The notes under the pieces: model-generated
Seen by the model: the letters and a program-made list of their open reading frames with translations, nothing else
Told to the model about the DNA's origin: nothing
Databases searched by the model: none
Source of the DNA: Athalassotoga saccharophila
Lineage (GTDB): Bacteria; Thermotogota; Thermotogae; Mesoaciditogales; Mesoaciditogaceae
Direction: 5' to 3'
Assembly (NCBI RefSeq): GCF_009936215.1
Contig: NZ_AP019551.1
Span: 434,001-498,000, forward strand
DNA length: 64,000 nucleotides
Made by a program: the position numbers and the translations under genes
Part shown: piece by piece, positions 3,669 to 38,052 of the stretch
Layout: every line of letters begins with the position of its first letter
Position numbering within the stretch: the stretch's first letter is position 1

Positions 3669-3746
3669 ATTAAGGACTACCTTGACGATAAAGGCCACGA
3701 ACCACCCGAGCGTGTCATTATGGGCACCTTCTGGAACGAATATTCG

Positions 3747-3769
3747 GAATTTGAACTTTGTTTGGTATA
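3747..3769 (+). repeat. 23-bp element shared with the queF upstream region (copy 1)
   Basis: These 23 bases are identical to 37988-38010 on the minus strand, just upstream of queF. The match extends to 28 bases with one mismatch. The element starts GAATTTGAAC and ends TTTGGTATA, which resembles an extended -10 box. It lies about 50 bases upstream of the apt promoter. It could be a shared promoter or regulator site. Confidence 0.65.
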
Positions 3770-3788: not shown

Positions 3789-3818
3789 TTGGAAGCGTAA
3801 AATTAAAACTGGTATAAT
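3789..3818 (+). promoter_or_regulatory. apt promoter
   Basis: A -35 box TTGGAA (3789-3794), an 18-base spacer and a perfect -10 TATAAT (3813-3818) with an extended TGG before it. It points at apt and is the only strong promoter in this gap. Confidence 0.65.
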
Positions 3819-3892: not shown

Positions 3893-4408
3893 TTGGTAGA
3901 ACTCAAATCATACATACGTGATATCCAGAACTTTCCAAAAGAAGGTGTTGTTTTTAAAGATATAACCCCTCTTTTGAAAGATCCGGAGGCTTTTGCATTT
4001 GCCATAGAAGAAATGTCCAAACTGGCCGCACAATTCAATCCTCAAAAGATCGTCGCGGCAGAAGCGCGCGGTTTCATCTTCGCGGCTCCTATTGCTTACA
4101 ATCTAAAAGCGGGTTTTGTTCCAATAAGAAAACCAGGAAAGTTGCCTTATTTCACGATAAATGAGGAATATTACCTTGAGTATGCCAAATCGAAAATAGA
4201 AATGCACGTTGACGCGATCGATCCAAATGAAAGGGTCGTAATAGTCGATGATATACTTGCAACGGGTGGGACCTCTCTCGCTATGGCCCATCTCGTTGAA
4301 AAATTGGGTGGAATAGTCAGTGGAATGGTCTTCCTCGGTGAACTTTCTTTTCTTGAACCGAGAAAGAATCTTAGAAATTACGAAGTTAAAGCACTGTTGA
4401 CATATTAG
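3893..4408 (+). CDS. apt: Adenine phosphoribosyltransferase
   Basis: Converts adenine and PRPP to AMP in the cytoplasm (purine salvage). The 171-residue length is typical. The N-terminus ELKSYIRDIQNFPKEGVVFKDI is characteristic, ARGFIFAAPIA is the adenine-binding part, and the PRPP loop VVIVDDILATGGTSLA sits near residue 115. The TTG start at 3893 follows GGGAGG by 11 bases and gives the expected N-terminus; no in-frame ATG precedes it. It has its own promoter and is followed by pgi after 23 bases. Confidence 0.95.
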   Translation: MVELKSYIRDIQNFPKEGVVFKDITPLLKDPEAFAFAIEEMSKLAAQFNPQKIVAAEARGFIFAAPIAYNLKAGFVPIRKPGKLPYFTINEEYYLEYAKSKIEMHVDAIDPNERVVIVDDILATGGTSLAMAHLVEKLGGIVSGMVFLGELSFLEPRKNLRNYEVKALLTY

Positions 4409-14686: not shown

Positions 14687-15958
14687 GTGTCATTATCGCT
14701 GAAGTTTTACATAGCAATTATCGCAATTATTGCCGGGGTGCTAATTGGCACCCTCCTCTTCTTTGAACCACTCGAGCCGTGGTGGATTATAGTCGTATGG
14801 GGCTTAAGCGGATGGTTTGCCGACGCCTTTCCGGTTGAAGTCAGAAAGATAAATGGAAACAAATGGATCATAGGATTGAGTATGACCTTTAACCTTTCTG
14901 CGGCCATTCTCTTTTCTCCAATAAGTGCCATGATAATAGGCGCAATTGCCTCAACATCCCTAAATGAAATGAAAACTACACAGTGGTACAAAATGGTCTT
15001 TAACATTTCACAGATTTCCACAGCGACCTTTGTTGCCGCCTTTGTATACAGGATCTTTCCGGTTAGTTCTGAAATAGTTAAGATCTTTGCAATAGCGATA
15101 GCGATAGGAATCTATGCGATAATAAACAACTCATTCGTTGCCGGTGCGATAAGTCTTGCGACAAAGAAAAAGTTCAAATGGATCCTAAAGGATGTCCTCA
15201 TAGACTTTTTTGGGCTTAGCATCTTCATATCCCTTGGGATCGCCTACCTTGCCATCTACCTTTATCCATTCGTTCACTTCTACGTGATCTTCATCATACT
15301 CGGACCATTGCTGGGAATAAGGTTTGTAATAGATCTCTACAGAAAATTTCTTCACACGAAACTTGAGGCCATGTACGCCCTTACAAAAGCGCTCGAGGAA
15401 AAGGACCCTTATACGGCCGGCCATGGCGAGCGCGTGAGTTTGTACTGCGAGGTCATTGCCGAGAAGATCGGCATATACGGAAAGCACCTCGACGATTTGA
15501 AGATCGCGGCCCAATTACACGATGTCGGCAAGATCGGCATAAGAGACATAGTTTTGAACAAGCCTGAAAGGCTTACTATCACAGAATACGAGGAGGTAAA
15601 AAGACACCCTATAGATGGCGCAAATGTGATCTCTCAAATACCCTCATTTGAAAGAATCGTTGGATGGGTCAAGTACCACCACGAAAGATGGGATGGTACG
15701 GGCTATCCGGAAGGATTAAAGGGAGAGGATATCCCTTTAGAGGCGAGGATAATAGGAATCTGCGATGTTTACGATGCATTGACTACCAAAAGGGCTTATC
15801 GAGAAGAATTCTCCCACGCCGAGACTTTGAAGATGATACGTTCTGAAAAAGGAAAGGCCTTCGATCCAAAACTCGTCGATGTACTCATCGAAAGCGCCGA
15901 CGAATTCGACAAAATAAGGATAGAAAATGCGCCTGTCTATCCCGAAATGAAAAAATGA
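14687..15958 (+). CDS. Membrane-bound HD-GYP domain phosphodiesterase
   Basis: A 423-residue protein. Residues 5-205 form an N-terminal sensor module with about six to seven membrane helices. Residues 220-400 form an HD-GYP domain with HDVGKIGI, the HHERWDGTGYPEGLKGEDIP stretch and ICDVYDALTTKRAYR. HD-GYP enzymes hydrolyse cyclic di-GMP (or related cyclic dinucleotides) with a bimetal centre; all HD and GYP residues are present. The GTG start follows AGAGGTGA. It overlaps the DUF5317 gene by 4 bases. Confidence 0.9.
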   Translation: MSLSLKFYIAIIAIIAGVLIGTLLFFEPLEPWWIIVVWGLSGWFADAFPVEVRKINGNKWIIGLSMTFNLSAAILFSPISAMIIGAIASTSLNEMKTTQWYKMVFNISQISTATFVAAFVYRIFPVSSEIVKIFAIAIAIGIYAIINNSFVAGAISLATKKKFKWILKDVLIDFFGLSIFISLGIAYLAIYLYPFVHFYVIFIILGPLLGIRFVIDLYRKFLHTKLEAMYALTKALEEKDPYTAGHGERVSLYCEVIAEKIGIYGKHLDDLKIAAQLHDVGKIGIRDIVLNKPERLTITEYEEVKRHPIDGANVISQIPSFERIVGWVKYHHERWDGTGYPEGLKGEDIPLEARIIGICDVYDALTTKRAYREEFSHAETLKMIRSEKGKAFDPKLVDVLIESADEFDKIRIENAPVYPEMKK

Positions 15959-16479
15959 TATACATATACGTGATAGTTGCGGCGATCGTAACCTCTTTGA
16001 TCTTCAAAAGAAATGTCTGGAACCCTCTCAATACCAATTTTAAATGGTTTTATCTCATCTTCATTCCTTTTATCCTTGAATTGATTGCGGTCTTTGGAAA
16101 TTTTGATTTTTCGAATTACCTGACATCCATTGCTTACATCATCTTGATAATCTTTTGCATTGCAAACTGGAAGATAAAGGGTTTTCCCTTCATAACTTTA
16201 GGGGCGATTTCGAATACAGTCGTGATACTTTTGAATGGAGGAAGGATGCCACTCTCAAAAGAGACTCTTGTGCTTGCGGGACTCCCACCCGATACAATGG
16301 ATCCCAAACACATTTTGATGGGACAAAATACCATCTTGCCATTTATGGGAGACATAATTCCGGTGAACTTTTTGGGTCTTCACTATGCCTGCAGCGTAGG
16401 AGATCTCTTTGTTTACACGGGACTTTTTCTTTTGATATATCTCAACGCAAAGAGAGGTGTTAAAAATGGCAAGGCCTAA
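15955..16479 (+). CDS. DUF5317 family membrane protein
   Basis: A 174-residue protein with about five membrane segments and the family features NGGRMPLS (about residue 94), KHILMGQNTILPFMGDIIP and a late SVGDLFVYTG segment. Its function is unknown. It starts at an ATGA overlap with the HD-GYP gene, and I recall such proteins near HD-GYP genes, so it may help the membrane sensor. Its end overlaps the DUF134 gene by 14 bases. Confidence 0.75.
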   Translation: MIYIYVIVAAIVTSLIFKRNVWNPLNTNFKWFYLIFIPFILELIAVFGNFDFSNYLTSIAYIILIIFCIANWKIKGFPFITLGAISNTVVILLNGGRMPLSKETLVLAGLPPDTMDPKHILMGQNTILPFMGDIIPVNFLGLHYACSVGDLFVYTGLFLLIYLNAKRGVKNGKA

Positions 16480-16870
16480 AAAATACAGGATGGTCGAATA
16501 CGTGTTGAAATCCTTGGAATTTTCTCCCGATAACCCAACCGGAGAGGTTGAGATCTCGATGGACGAACTCGAGGCAATGCGTCTTGCCGACATCGAAAAG
16601 ATGTATCAAATAGATGCCGCCAAATTAATGGGCATATCCCGCCAAACCTTTGGAAGGATTCTCGACTCGGCCCACTCAAAGATCGCCGACGCCCTTATAA
16701 ATTCAAAAAAGATAAAGACGGGAAATGACGGCAGATGCAGGGTCGTGAAGTTGATGAAGTGCGATGATTGCGGCAAGGTCTTTCGAACCCCTGTCGATTA
16801 CACCGGTCATGAGTGCCCGTACTGTCACAAAGAACATGCCCACCCTCTAAGTTCAGATCCTGTCGAATGA
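16466..16870 (+). CDS. DUF134 (UPF0251) putative DNA-binding protein
   Basis: A 134-residue protein with the family opening RPKKYRMVEY, the conserved ELEAMRLADIEKMYQIDAAK helix-turn-helix region followed by GISRQTFGRIL, and a C-terminal zinc-ribbon-like set of cysteines (CDDCGKVF ... CPYCHKEH). It is predicted to bind DNA, but its targets are unknown. The ATG at 16466 follows GAGAGGTG. It closes the HD-GYP/DUF5317 gene set and may regulate it. Confidence 0.8.
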   Translation: MARPKKYRMVEYVLKSLEFSPDNPTGEVEISMDELEAMRLADIEKMYQIDAAKLMGISRQTFGRILDSAHSKIADALINSKKIKTGNDGRCRVVKLMKCDDCGKVFRTPVDYTGHECPYCHKEHAHPLSSDPVE

Positions 16871-16924
16871 TTCAGACTTTGTTTCGTCCTACGCGCACAT
16901 TCGGATCAAGCGAGCCGAGTATAG

Positions 16925-16930
16925 TATAAT
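16925..16930 (+). promoter_or_regulatory. metG promoter -10 box
   Basis: TATAAT within GAGTATAGTATAATAATG. No good -35 is visible (TTCGGA at 16900, 19 bases upstream). A transcript starting here favours the TTG at 17005 as the metG start. Confidence 0.5.
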
Positions 16931-17004
16931 AATGATCGAAAGTGAATACTTCAAAGATGCGCTTCGTGCGCAAGGATGTGTATTTAATCGAAGAGGTGAA
17001 AGAC

Positions 17005-18891
17005 TTGTCGAAGACTTTTTACGTTACAACACCCATATATTACGTTAATTCCGATCCACACATAGGATCTGCTTACACTACCATAGTCGCGGACGTTGTT
17101 GCACGCTACAAACGCATGATGGGATACGATACCTTTTTCCTTACCGGAACCGATGAACATGGCCAAAAGATAATGAGGGCGGCAAAAGAGAAGGGCATGG
17201 ACACTAAGAAATTCGTTGACGACCTTGCTCAGAGGTTCATTCAACTGTGGAAAGACCTTGAAATTTCGAATGATCTCTTCATAAGAACGACAGATGATTA
17301 TCACGTAAAGACAGTTCAGGAATTCTTTCAAAAGATGTACGAAAAGGGAGACATATACCTTGGAAAGTACGAAGGATGGTATTGTGTTCACGATGAGACC
17401 TTTTGGACCGAAAAGGACATAGGGCCCGATAAACTTTGTCCGGTCTGTCATAGACCTTTAGAGCATGTTGAGGAGGAAAATTATTTTTTTAGATTGTCGA
17501 AATACACAAAGCCACTTCTCGATCATTTCAGGTCCCATCCGGACTTCGTCGAGCCGGATTTCAGAAGAAATGAGATGATAAAGATTCTCGAAGAAGGTCT
17601 TGAGGACATAAGCGTTTCGCGCACCTCTTTTGATTGGGGAATTCCTCTGCCTTTCGATAAAAAGCATGTCATATACGTATGGTTTGACGCTCTTATAAAT
17701 TACGTCTCGGCCGTAGGATATGGAAGAGACGATGAAAAATTCAAAAAGTATTGGCCTGCCGATGTACATTTTGTCGGAAAGGAGATAAATCGCTTTCATT
17801 CCCTTATATGGCCTGCAATGCTCATGAGCGTGGGACTTCCACTGCCCAAAAAGATTTTCGCCCATGGATGGCTAACGGTCAACGGAGAAAAGATTTCAAA
17901 ATCAAAGGGAAATGCAGTCGATCCGCGCGTGCTTGTCAAAGCCTACGGACTCGACGCGGTCAAATATTACCTGTTAAGAGACATAACCTTTGGAAATGAT
18001 GGAGATTTTTCCGAGGACAATTTGATAGTTAGAATAAATGCCGATCTGGCAAATGATCTTGGAAATCTTGTCCACAGAACCCTATCAATGGTAAATCAAA
18101 ATTTCGAAGAAATTCCAGATCCTTCCAAAGAGGAAAAAATAGACGACGATTTAAAAGACCTGCTTTCAAGAACGATAAATGATTATTTTTCTTACATGGA
18201 CAGTTTCAAATTCACCGAGGCGTTAATTTCGATATGGAATCTTGTTAAATTCTCTAACAAATACATAGACATGACCGAACCATGGCTTCTCGCAAGAGAT
18301 CCATCGAAAAAAGAAAGACTCGGGACCGTCCTTTACAATCTCGTTGACGTTATAAGAAACATATCTATAATGATCTCTCCGATCATGGTAAAGACCTCCA
18401 AATCACTTATAGATAGAATAAATCAGGATTTAGACGTTAACATGCTTGGATGGCATAAGACAGAGAAGGCGAAGATAGAGGTTGGAGAGCCCCTCTTTCC
18501 GAGAATAGACACAAAAGTATGGAAAAAGGTGATAAAGATGGCAGAAACGGAAGAAAACCAAAAAAAGGCAGAAATAAGCATAGAGGATTTTGCAAAGATC
18601 GATTTGAGAGTTGCAAGGATAAAAAAGGCAGAAAGAATTCCAAAATCCGAAAAACTCGTGAAATTAATCTTAGATGTCGGAGGAGAAGAAAGACAGATCG
18701 TCACCGGCATAGGATTGGTCTACACACCAGAGTCTTTGATAGGACGGGAAATAATCATCATCTACAATCTTAAACCGACGAAGTTGATGGGCGTTGAGTC
18801 AAATGGAATGCTTCTGGCGGCGAAGGATGGAGAAAAATTGAGAATTTTAACCGTCGATGGCTTTGTAGAGACCGGAGCAAAAATATCTTGA
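17005..18891 (+). CDS. metG: Methionyl-tRNA synthetase
   Basis: Charges tRNA-Met. The 628-residue protein has the class I signature TPIYYVNSDPHIGSAYT, where HIGS is the HIGH box, a zinc-knuckle insertion with CPVCHRP near residue 150, the KMSKS loop as KISKSKGN (about residue 298) and a C-terminal tRNA-binding EMAP-like domain from about residue 525 (FAKIDLRVARI ... GIGLVY). I chose the TTG at 17005 because GAGGTGA lies just upstream and it gives the family N-terminus MSKTFYVTTP; the upstream in-frame GTG at 16942 adds 21 unrelated residues. Confidence 0.95.
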   Translation: MSKTFYVTTPIYYVNSDPHIGSAYTTIVADVVARYKRMMGYDTFFLTGTDEHGQKIMRAAKEKGMDTKKFVDDLAQRFIQLWKDLEISNDLFIRTTDDYHVKTVQEFFQKMYEKGDIYLGKYEGWYCVHDETFWTEKDIGPDKLCPVCHRPLEHVEEENYFFRLSKYTKPLLDHFRSHPDFVEPDFRRNEMIKILEEGLEDISVSRTSFDWGIPLPFDKKHVIYVWFDALINYVSAVGYGRDDEKFKKYWPADVHFVGKEINRFHSLIWPAMLMSVGLPLPKKIFAHGWLTVNGEKISKSKGNAVDPRVLVKAYGLDAVKYYLLRDITFGNDGDFSEDNLIVRINADLANDLGNLVHRTLSMVNQNFEEIPDPSKEEKIDDDLKDLLSRTINDYFSYMDSFKFTEALISIWNLVKFSNKYIDMTEPWLLARDPSKKERLGTVLYNLVDVIRNISIMISPIMVKTSKSLIDRINQDLDVNMLGWHKTEKAKIEVGEPLFPRIDTKVWKKVIKMAETEENQKKAEISIEDFAKIDLRVARIKKAERIPKSEKLVKLILDVGGEERQIVTGIGLVYTPESLIGREIIIIYNLKPTKLMGVESNGMLLAAKDGEKLRILTVDGFVETGAKIS

Positions 18892-18901
18892 GGTGTAAAT
18901 A

Positions 18902-21331
18902 ATGGAGGAAATAAAAAGATCTATTTCTGAAGAACTCGTCGAGTCTTACATGAATTACTCGATGAGTGTAATAATAGGAAGGGCCATCCCTGACGTGAGA
19001 GATGGACTAAAACCTGTCCAGAGAAGAATTCTCTTTTCGATGAACGAGTTAAACCTTAAAAACAGTGGTCCTACCAAAAAAAGTGCGAGGATAGTCGGAG
19101 AGGTCATGGGAAAGTACCATCCTCATGGAGATATGGCAATATACGATGCCCTTGTGAGAATGGCACAGGATTTCACGATGAGATATCCCCTCGTACATGG
19201 TCAGGGAAATTTCGGATCGATAGACAGAGATCCGCCGGCGGCTTCGAGGTACACCGAGGCAAAACTCTCAAAGATCGCCGAAGAAATGCTCGAGGACATA
19301 GAAGAAAATACAGTCGATATGGTACCTAACTTCGATGAAACTCTTAAGGAACCGGTCGTACTGCCGTCCAAAATCCCGCAGTTATTGCTTAACGGGGCAT
19401 CTGGGATCGCCGTTGGAATGGCAACCTCTATACCTCCCCACAACATAGGAGAGGTGGCAGATCTCATTTCGAAATTCATAGACAATCCCGAAATGACGGA
19501 CGATGAGGTTGCATCTCTTTTGAAAGGGCCCGACTTCCCGACCGGTGGCATCGTAATGGATTCCGAAGCGATAAGGAATATATACAGAACCGGACGCGGC
19601 TCGATCGTTATAAGATCGAGAACATCTATAGAAGATCACAAAAACAGAAGCAGAATCATCGTGACAGAGATCCCCTACGGTGTATCAAAGGCGTCTTTGA
19701 TAGAGCAGATCGCCGAATACGCCAAAAATTCAAAAGAAAATATAATCTCAGATATACGAGACGAATCTGACAAGGAAGGACTTAGAATCGTCATAGAAAT
19801 AGCGAGAAATGCCGATGCGAATATAGTTCTAAATAGGTTACTTAAACATACAGCCCTTGAGACTCACTTTGCAGTTCAGATGCTTGTCATAGATCACGGA
19901 AAGCCGAAATTGATGAATTTAAAGCAGATAATAAAGGCTTTCATAGATCACAGGTACGAAGTAATAAAAAGAAGAAGCGAATACGAATTCGAAAAATTTT
20001 CCAAGAGGGCCCATATAGTCGAGGGATTGATAAAGGCATCGAGAGCGATTGGAACGGTCGTTGACATAGTAAAAAATTCTCGAGACCTCGAAAGCGCAAT
20101 AGATAGCCTTACGAAGATACTGGAAGTTTCGAGAGAACAGGCCGAGGCAATAATGGATATGAAACTACAAAGACTTACAACGCTCGAGCATGCAAAACTC
20201 GACGAAGAATACAAAAATCTCATAGAAAGTATGGGCAGACTCCACGCGTTGCTCGGATCTGATAGGATGATAATGGAAGAGATAAAGAAGGACATGGAGT
20301 ACATAAAGTCAAAGTACGGGGACGCGAGAAGAAGTGAGATCTCACAAAGCACAGAAAATATAAACATAGAAGATCTCATCCCCGACGATGAGATAGTCGT
20401 CACGATAACGCATAACGGTTATGTCTCGGCCACAAAACTCGAAAGTTATAAGATGCAGTCAAGAGGCGGAAAGGGAAATATCTCGATTCGCACCCGAGAG
20501 GACGATTACGTAGAACATACCTTTGTAACGACCAAGTTGAGTTATACGGGTTTCATAACCAATCTTGGAAAATTCTATTTCATAAAGAATTACAACTTTC
20601 AAGAGAATGAAAAGGGATCCAAGGGAAAACTCATATTGAATTATTTCAATCTTTCTCCCAATGAAAAGGTCAAATCGGTCATATCGATAGGCCACACCCT
20701 TGATCCTTCAAAGGATATGTGGATAGCGACAAAATCGGGAAAGATAAAGAGGATCTCTCTGAGTGAATTTTCATTCAAGTCAAATGGTGTGCTTGCGATA
20801 AAACTCGAAGATGGAGACGAGGTTGTCGATAGCGCCCTTACAGACACGAATGAAAAGAACATAATAGCGCTTTCAACTTTGAAAGGCTTTGTAAACGCAT
20901 TCAAGGATGAAGACGTCAGAAAGATGGGAAGAATGGCCATGGGGATCAGGGGCATAAGGTTGCACGAAGGAGACGAGGTAGTTTCGATGATAGTTTTAAA
21001 AGCAGACGAGGCAGATAAGGTCCAGTTATTGACCATAACTGAAAAGGGACTTGGAAAGAGGAGTCCATTCTCGGATTATCCGATTCATAAAAGAGGATCG
21101 CAGGGCGTAAGAAATCTAAGGTTAACGGCAAAAAATGGACTCGTCGTATCGACGGCCAAAGTCGTAGAAGATGATGAGATAATAGCCGTAACTGCCAATG
21201 GAAAGGCAATAAGATTCAAGGTTTCCGATCTTTCTGTAACGAGCAGAAACACGCAGGGCTTTAGATGTGTTGATCTCGATCCCGAAGACAAGGTCGTTGC
21301 ATTCACGCCCTTGAGGGGGATAGATTCTTGA
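18902..21331 (+). CDS. gyrA: DNA gyrase subunit A
   Basis: The 809-residue cleavage subunit of DNA gyrase. It has the catalytic tyrosine in [11 protein letters not shown] (about residue 116), the QRRIL and GKYHPHGD motifs, and a C-terminal six-blade DNA-wrapping domain. The GyrA box near residue 520 reads QSRGGKG, which supports gyrase over topoisomerase IV. The ATG follows GAGGTGTAAATA. Its stop overlaps the truA start. Confidence 0.94.
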
Positions 21332-34556: not shown

Positions 34557-34562
34557 ATTATA
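34557..34562 (-). promoter_or_regulatory. Aldolase promoter -10 box
   Basis: On the minus strand TTTGGTATATAAT: an extended -10 with TATAAT. It shares the TTTGGTATA core with the repeated element upstream of apt and queF. The -35 is weak (TACTGT, 17 bases upstream). Confidence 0.55.
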
Positions 34563-34683
34563 TACCAAATCGTAATTTAACAGTAAAAGACTTTATTGAT
34601 TACGGAGCGTTACATGCCATATCTCTGTTTTTTCTATGTGACACGCGCTGTGCTGACACCTGCCGGAGCGATTCGGATACGGT

Positions 34684-35724
34684 TCAGTATATAACATTGT
34701 ATATCTTGGGGAAACGCTTTATAAAGATTCCCACCCCAAGCGCTACAAGTGATGAGACAAAGCCGGCGAAGATCTGAATGTAAAGGTTCGCACCCTTTGA
34801 GACATCAGCAAAGGGAAAAAAGGCCGCGAATGTGAGCCCTATTATCAAAATATGATCCGCGTATATATCAAATGAATGGTTCCCAAAGAGTGCGAGTACA
34901 CCGGAATATCTTTTTTCCTTTACAAGGTGGGACACCCATAAAAAGACTGGAAGTGAAAAGCAGTAAAAAAGGTATTCAAAAGGACCAAGGGCCGAGTATG
35001 ATTCGTAATCCTGTAAAAGTTTTGGAACGGTTATTATCATCGCAACGGATCCTGCATAGGAAAGCAGAAAACCAATCCATACCCAAAAAGATGGCTTTTT
35101 GAGCCATAAAAAGTCTCCATTTTGTGCAACGTACATTCCCCAAAGGTAAAAAAAGGCCCAGATCAAAGGATTTCGGTAAGTTATCGTCGAATTGACGATG
35201 GAATAATTCCAGTACTGGGGAATATAATACAATGCGGTAAAGAAAAGACCGGTTATCAGAGAGAATGCCATCAAATGTTTTAAATTCGTCTTGAAAATAA
35301 AAGGTGTTAAAACGTAAAAGATCAAAAGCACGAAGATAAAATAAAATGGAAGGTAGATAGTTGCGAAAAGATATCCGTAAATCAGGTTTGGAACGCTTAA
35401 CTGGTAAGATCCAGAAAGATAATTAGAAAGTCCTACTTGAATTAAAAGATAAATCGTAGACCATAAAAAATAAGGGGGAAGAAAGGTCTTGAGTTTTTTT
35501 GATACAAAATGAGAGGGCGATCTTTTGTAACTTCTGTATGCTAAGAATCCTGAAACAAAGAAAAAAATCACCACTACAGGTGTTCCTAAAGGGCCAAAAA
35601 AATAAAGCACATTCTGTATTTTTTCATCGTAAGTTTGAAAATTGTAAAAAATGGCATGAAAAAAGACGACCGTTAATATCCCGAACCCCTTTAAAAGATC
35701 GAATTCCTTTATTCTTTCATCCAT
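34684..35724 (-). CDS. Acyltransferase 3 family membrane protein
   Basis: A 346-residue protein with about ten membrane helices. The N-terminal family motif FDLLKGFGILTVVFFHAIF contains the catalytic histidine, and VVIFFFVSGFLAYRSYKR follows. Such enzymes (OafA/ExoZ type) acylate surface sugars. The start overlaps the TM0106 nuclease stop by 8 bases, so it ends the long queuosine-containing operon. Its substrate is unknown; a cell-envelope glycan is likely. Confidence 0.85.
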   Translation of the reverse strand: MDERIKEFDLLKGFGILTVVFFHAIFYNFQTYDEKIQNVLYFFGPLGTPVVVIFFFVSGFLAYRSYKRSPSHFVSKKLKTFLPPYFLWSTIYLLIQVGLSNYLSGSYQLSVPNLIYGYLFATIYLPFYFIFVLLIFYVLTPFIFKTNLKHLMAFSLITGLFFTALYYIPQYWNYSIVNSTITYRNPLIWAFFYLWGMYVAQNGDFLWLKKPSFWVWIGFLLSYAGSVAMIITVPKLLQDYESYSALGPFEYLFYCFSLPVFLWVSHLVKEKRYSGVLALFGNHSFDIYADHILIIGLTFAAFFPFADVSKGANLYIQIFAGFVSSLVALGVGIFIKRFPKIYNVIY

Positions 35725-37571: not shown

Positions 37572-37964
37572 CTATCTTTCACCCTTTTCTATAATCGTTG
37601 TGGCATCTATTCCACCGCGAGTTTTGTAAACGACAGTTATCTTCATCCAGATAGGCTTTAGAAGTTCAAAAAGATCGTCAAAGATCCTTTGCGTGGCCTT
37701 TTCCTGGTAAATTCCAACATTTCTAAAGGATACGAAATAATACTTCAAGGACTTTAACTCTATTATTTTGTCAGAAGGAATGTACTCTATCGTAACCTTA
37801 CCTATATCGGGAAGACCGGAAAAAGGACAAACTGCCGAAAATTCATCCGTTTCGTACCTGACGAATTCTCTTTCTTTATTATGAAAATCTATAGTCTCAA
37901 GGATGCCGGTCTCTATGGCATCTTCTCCAAGAAAAGAAAAGGTCTTTCCTTCGGCCTTTGGCAT
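37572..37964 (-). CDS. queF: preQ1 synthase (7-cyano-7-deazaguanine reductase)
   Basis: Reduces preQ0 to preQ1 with NADPH in queuosine synthesis. The 130-residue unimodular form has the nucleophile Cys in [12 protein letters not shown] (about residue 48, with the catalytic Asp nearby) and the NADPH-binding QueF motif ELKSLKYYF (about residue 71). The ATG at 37964 follows GGGAGATGAT; a longer in-frame start at 38045 would run through the promoter. It has its own promoter with the shared 23-bp element. Confidence 0.93.
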
Positions 37965-37987: not shown

Positions 37988-38010
37988 TATACCAAACAAA
38001 GTTCAAATTC
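37988..38010 (-). repeat. 23-bp element shared with the apt upstream region (copy 2)
   Basis: Identical over 23 bases to 3747-3769, and 28 bases with one mismatch. On the minus strand it runs directly into TATAATC, so here it carries the queF promoter (-10 at 37985-37990), about 20 bases before the start codon. Confidence 0.65.
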
Positions 38011-38052
38011 AGAATGATCGGCAGGTGATTTGGCACATAGTACATGCATCGA

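Follow-up and report, generated by a model that had tools for sequence, protein, structure and literature searches.

A 23-base sequence shared upstream of apt and queF is very probably the terminal repeat of a TA-inserting MITE family with a promoter-like tip

Introduction

The duplication of a TA dinucleotide on insertion is the signature of IS630/Tc1-mariner elements, and the RUP elements of Streptococcus pneumoniae are short, non-autonomous, IS630-related repeats that are found at TA. The Correia elements (CREE) of Neisseria are miniature inverted-repeat transposable elements (MITEs) of approximately 105-155 bp with 26-bp terminal repeats beginning TATA; they target TA, form hairpins, are often located 5' of genes and can create promoters at either of their ends (PMC2649163, PMC10969869). 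No paper on such elements in this lineage (Thermotogota) was found in the literature searched.

An earlier note on the DNA examined here, made from its sequence alone, had described a 23-base sequence shared by the upstream regions of apt and queF, and suggested that it was either a shared promoter type or the site of a purine-linked regulator. What was overlooked is that the 23-mer is, very probably, a transposon terminal repeat. We consider it very likely that this sequence forms the right-hand terminal inverted repeat of a non-autonomous MITE family specific to the genus, which inserts at TA and whose tip would form an outward-facing extended -10 promoter element.

Materials and Methods

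The window is the whole stretch of DNA that was analysed, 64,000 nucleotides in length (G000:C1:434001-498000), from a genome of 2.04 Mb (G000). Loci beyond the window were examined as stretches surrounding the matches. Genes were called with a home-made ORF script, with murJ (Pfam) and the tmRNA gene (Rfam) being assigned separately. Insertion sites were compared with those of G003, a genome of the same genus in which Apt is 98% identical.

Results

The description of the two sites in the earlier note was largely upheld. The same 23 bases, GAATTTGAACTTTGTTTGGTATA, are present at 3747-3769 (+) and 37988-38010 (-), and the identity is 27 of 28 when the five upstream bases are included (ATTCG vs ATTCT); the chance expectation for a shared 23-mer in the window was 0.00 in 100 dinucleotide shuffles. 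Both downstream genes do act on purine-type bases, Apt and QueF were each confirmed by NCBIfam models, and the -10-like TTTGGTATA is indeed also found before an aldolase gene, which is of the DeoC/LacD type. The regions surrounding the two copies were said to differ, and this is only partly correct, as the whole-element model stretches the apt match to 3720 and the queF match to 38027. This model (R1) matched the apt relic at model positions 103-152 (26.6 bits, E 2.8e-7) and the queF relic at positions 108-152 (16.0 bits, E 5.7e-4), and the right-end model (R2) matched them with 44.9 bits (E 4.5e-13) and 40.5 bits (E 1.1e-11) respectively. At queF, TTTGGTATA stops 23 nt short of the ATG and continues into TAAT. 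No Rfam family was matched by the window copies, and for the copies outside the window Rfam matches were to tmRNA and tRNAs only.

Table 1. Coordinates of the MITE-related features and associated genes in the window
Feature	Position	Strand	Remarks
MITE relic at apt, right-hand terminal part	3720..3769	+	upstream of apt
Terminal inverted repeat (the 23-mer) in the apt relic	3747-3769	+	-10-like TTTGGTATA at 3761-3769
Candidate native apt promoter, TGGTATAAT	3810..3818	+	downstream of the element; conserved in G003 as TGATATAAT
apt, adenine phosphoribosyltransferase	3893..4408	+	NF002636 220 bits, TIGR01090 208.5 bits, both above cut-off
TTTGGTATA(TAAT) before the aldolase gene	34561..34569	-	opposite edge of copy 34561-34691
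Degenerate MITE copy, right terminal repeat	34657..34691	+	CACCTGCCGGAGCGAT..GGTTCAGTATA type
queF, preQ1 synthase	37572..37964	-	TIGR03139 QueF-II 116 bits, above cut-off
MITE relic at queF, right-hand terminal part	37988..38027	-	upstream of queF

The right end of a third, degenerate copy is placed between the aldolase gene and its upstream neighbour, and had a local alignment score of 20, where 2000 shuffles gave no more than 13.5. On the opposite edge of this copy sits TTTGGTATATAAT, and from this position and a weak similarity the TTTGGTATA of the aldolase gene may be the poorly preserved left end of the copy. The end TATACTGA (34684-34691) of the third copy overlaps the 34684-35724 (-) gene at its stop codon, which it appears to provide.

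When the genome was searched for the 23-mer with up to 3 mismatches, 20 copies were found and none with the reversed control; a looser pattern gave 24 copies. Among 101 relatives searched, the only genomes in which the 23-mer was common were three of the genus's four members (21, 20 and 7 copies). It was absent (0 copies) from the fourth member, G001, and outside of the genus two genomes had 1-2 three-mismatch matches each. The whole-element model had 16 matches in G000, 33 in G001, 78 in G002 and 21 in G003, and the 43-bp right-end model had 35, 4 (weak), 41 and 23 in the same order. The elements of G001 form a separate subfamily with the ends TATACTAAATCT.. / ..GGTTTAGTATA. The degenerate motif had no exact match in the viral contigs searched.

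A second conserved piece, TATACTGAATTCACTTTAAAAGCCGAAT, lies upstream of several copies and pairs imperfectly, in inverted orientation, with the 23-mer end; the terminal inverted repeats are TATACTGAATTCACTTTAAAAGCCGAAT on the left and CATTCGGAATTTAAAACTGGTTCAGTATA / ATTCGGAATTTGAATTTTGTTTGGTATA on the right. The units in which both ends are present measure 57-375 bp (approximately 55-375 bp for the family), with a canonical form of approximately 150 bp which could be aligned across three genomes and folds into a single long hairpin with its ends paired (z -3.5). The element is thus short, non-coding and dispersed in multiple copies in the four genomes, and its paired inverted ends, hairpin, dispersed copies and genus-limited spread identify it as a MITE family.

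The interiors of individual copies vary. In six loci (L021, L036, L037, L041, L044 and L055) degenerate repeats, of the gtgaacagtgacgagtaaa and cacgtgctacgtgccacg types, replace or enlarge the interior, and the same pair of ends encloses very different insides. A near-identical locus (L021 and L044) is from the MAG FK4.bin83, and L015 and L021 have in common a 340-bp stretch of 86% identity upstream of the element, which contains a 26-bp inverted repeat.

Insertion at TA can be seen directly at rpsB and pepC, where the junctions are exact and the TA is single in G003 and doubled in G000. The rpsB site is uninterrupted in G003, CACTGG-TA-AAAATGTAGAC, and is filled in G000, CACTTG-TA-[ TACTGAATTC...TTTGGTA ]-TA-AGAATGTAGAC; the insertion is 149 bp counting one TA, i.e. 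the element and the TA duplication. The pepC site is empty in G003, ATTTGTTATA-GAATAAAA, and the same flanks enclose a 55-bp insertion in G000, an alternative alignment also existing to this one, which was chosen with its 10 identical flanking bases. Upstream of apt the element is absent from both G003 and G001, and the queF site lacks it in G003, G002 and G001; the queF intergenic region of G003 is shorter. As the apt site has no clean left junction, G003 is taken to be empty there on account of this absence and not of an exact junction, and at guaA rearrangement of the upstream regions has gone too far for a clean empty site.

An intact IS630-type copy (L033) is present in G000, and it encodes a DDE_3 transposase (PF13358, 89 bits) and has the TIR TATACTAAATCTCTTTTAAAA. 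Its ends, TATACTAAATCTCTTTTAAAAGTG, match those of the MITEs of G001, with the TIR TATACTAAATCT.TTTTAAAA being common to both. The family is related to this autonomous DDE_3 element, whose ends match, the match being weaker for the 23-mer subfamily: this single intact copy does not have the exact 23-mer type of TIR but one that is related and different, and the best likeness to this subfamily is a broken IS copy on contig C3 with the end GATTCGGAATTTAAACTTGGTTGAGTATA. In L025/L034 (G000:C3 about 15600-19100) an IS110-like element interrupts an IS630-type transposase gene and a Mutator-type transposase gene adjoins, the IS110-like and Mutator-type names being given by eye.

The genes downstream of the copies are functionally mixed. 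They comprise apt, queF, guaA, rpsB, thrC (two), thrS, trpS, pepC and murJ, genes for an ABC ATPase, an acyltransferase, a ferritin-like protein, a CoA-transferase subunit and TIGR00725 and TIGR00266 proteins, aldehyde dehydrogenase-like and TrkA-like genes (both named by eye), and ssrA. A diverged end of the 23-mer type (3 mismatches) lies directly before the tmRNA gene and after a tRNA cluster (L024, G000:C1 about 843734).

In G000, 20 of 23 ends face a downstream gene (one being the tmRNA gene) and three face none, and many lie 19-50 nt ahead of the start codon. The tip, TTTGG-TATA, resembles an extended -10 (a box like TGN-TATAAT, suitably spaced from the gene that follows), and the -35 region is poor (TTCGGA, 17 bp spacing). 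Pooled over G000, G002 and G003, ends with TTTGG were sense in 35 cases and antisense in 6, compared to 18 and 27 for the other family ends (Fisher p = 1.8e-5), a count in which not all sites are independent as a few are orthologous in two genomes; in G002 and G003 alone the bias of the TTTGG ends had p = 0.011. The flanking sequence completes TATAAT or TATATAAT in 12 of 22 G000 ends vs 5 of 37 others (p = 0.0012). At pepC the insertion is within a native -10-like TTGTTATAGAAT and converts it to TTTGGTATAGAAT, and at queF G003 has TTTTGGTATAATC and G000 TTTGGTATATAATC, either of which may be the ancestral state. These two sites suggest that the tip restores a promoter broken by the insertion. 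The earlier proposal of a shared promoter type is partly supported, by the extended -10-like tip and the sense bias. At rpsB, as at apt (Table 1), a conserved native promoter candidate is located downstream of the element, so the transposon end would at most be an additional promoter there and is not needed.

Discussion

The likely course of events is as follows. An element inserts at TA and duplicates it, having probably been moved in trans by a transposase of the IS630/Tc1-mariner type. The outer tip of this subfamily, TTTGG, together with its TA and the target TA gives TTTGGTATA, which with a flanking AT or TAAT could become an outward-facing extended -10 (TGG-TATAAT). If it lands ahead of a gene, or if its target TA belongs to a -10 box already present, the element may then supply or restore a housekeeping-type promoter, and such insertions could be retained as the interior is lost, until only single ends remain, as at apt and queF. 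It is predicted that sigma-A recognises these ends and that transcription starts from them. We also put forward, tentatively, the possibility that insertion is promoter-preserving, i.e. that because the TTTGG tip rebuilds an extended -10, hits in promoters are harmless or even beneficial, and that many of the housekeeping promoters of the genus have been replaced in this way by lone portable ends of approximately 28 bp.

Whether the ends have any function at all can be questioned, as the native promoters are still present at apt and rpsB, and an intergenic position is common for MITEs (general knowledge; PMC10969869). The copies would then be transposon relics, with the sense bias arising from intergenic landing and the loss of harmful orientations. 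We regard this as unlikely, since the remaining ends of the family in these genomes show no such bias (18 and 27 vs 35 and 6) and complete TATAAT less often, and the TTTGG ends are both kept where the remaining element is lost and conserved at orthologous loci of two species (L008/L051 and L010/L045). It is also conceivable that the motif is an ordinary promoter class conserved in the genus, either with an extended -10 preceded by a constant upstream element or read by an alternative sigma factor, and that the likeness to MITE ends is secondary. The strong sense bias before housekeeping genes fits with this, as do L008, L014 and L016, in which only the last 28 bp are present, directly after the stop codon of the preceding gene. 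However, complete elements with a pair of inverted ends terminate in this identical end, both rpsB and pepC have empty sites, with the TA duplicated when filled, and neither in G001 nor elsewhere in the class do the orthologous promoters contain the 23-mer, which makes this explanation very improbable.

The least probable explanation, and an extremely improbable one, is that a regulator responding to purines or deazapurines binds the 23-mer at apt and queF. Both window genes do handle purine-type bases, and a further copy lies at guaA, but most of the approximately 20 downstream genes have no link with purines (for example rpsB, thrC, thrS, trpS, pepC, murJ and ssrA), the element is missing at apt and queF in the relatives listed above, including at apt in G003, and the copies are the ends of transposon-like units. 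The mixed gene set means that there is no purine regulon, and a purine-regulator origin of the motif, contradicted both by these genes and by the empty sites, was rejected and is refuted. The earlier note had held that many copies at unrelated, non-promoter positions would count against its interpretation; the genes are indeed functionally unrelated, but the positions are mostly promoter-like.

With the 23-mer read as a MITE end, what appeared to be a regulatory coincidence becomes an example of transposon ends co-opted as promoter-like sequences before essential genes. As both empty and filled versions of the sites exist among close relatives, how an insertion becomes a promoter is directly testable. 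It is also a warning that motifs common to upstream regions can be transposon ends and not regulator sites.

Like IS630/Tc1-mariner elements, the family has short terminal inverted repeats and a duplicated TA target, and the DDE_3 transposase is that of the IS; in contrast, the elements at apt and queF are far shorter, encode no protein and have the TIR of a diverged subfamily. They resemble the RUP elements in being short, non-autonomous, IS630-related and associated with TA, and to our knowledge the RUP sequence is unrelated to that of the present family. The closest known kind is the CREE, to which the family is similar in size, TA target, hairpin, frequent position 5' of genes and ends that form promoters (here putative ones). 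The CREE terminal TATAG[CT]GGATTAAATTTAAACC resembles the TIRs described here in general pattern only, and the sequence, host lineage and subfamilies are different. When the TIRs TATACTGAATTC / TATACCAAAC / TATACTAAATCT were compared by eye with the published TATAG[CT]GGATTAA... patterns (PMC2649163), identity with Correia elements was rejected. The promoters of CREE have been tested experimentally, whereas those of the present family are predicted. Furthermore, unlike CREE, the present family has its promoter-like tip, TTTGGTATA, on one end and has many survivors that consist of a lone end.
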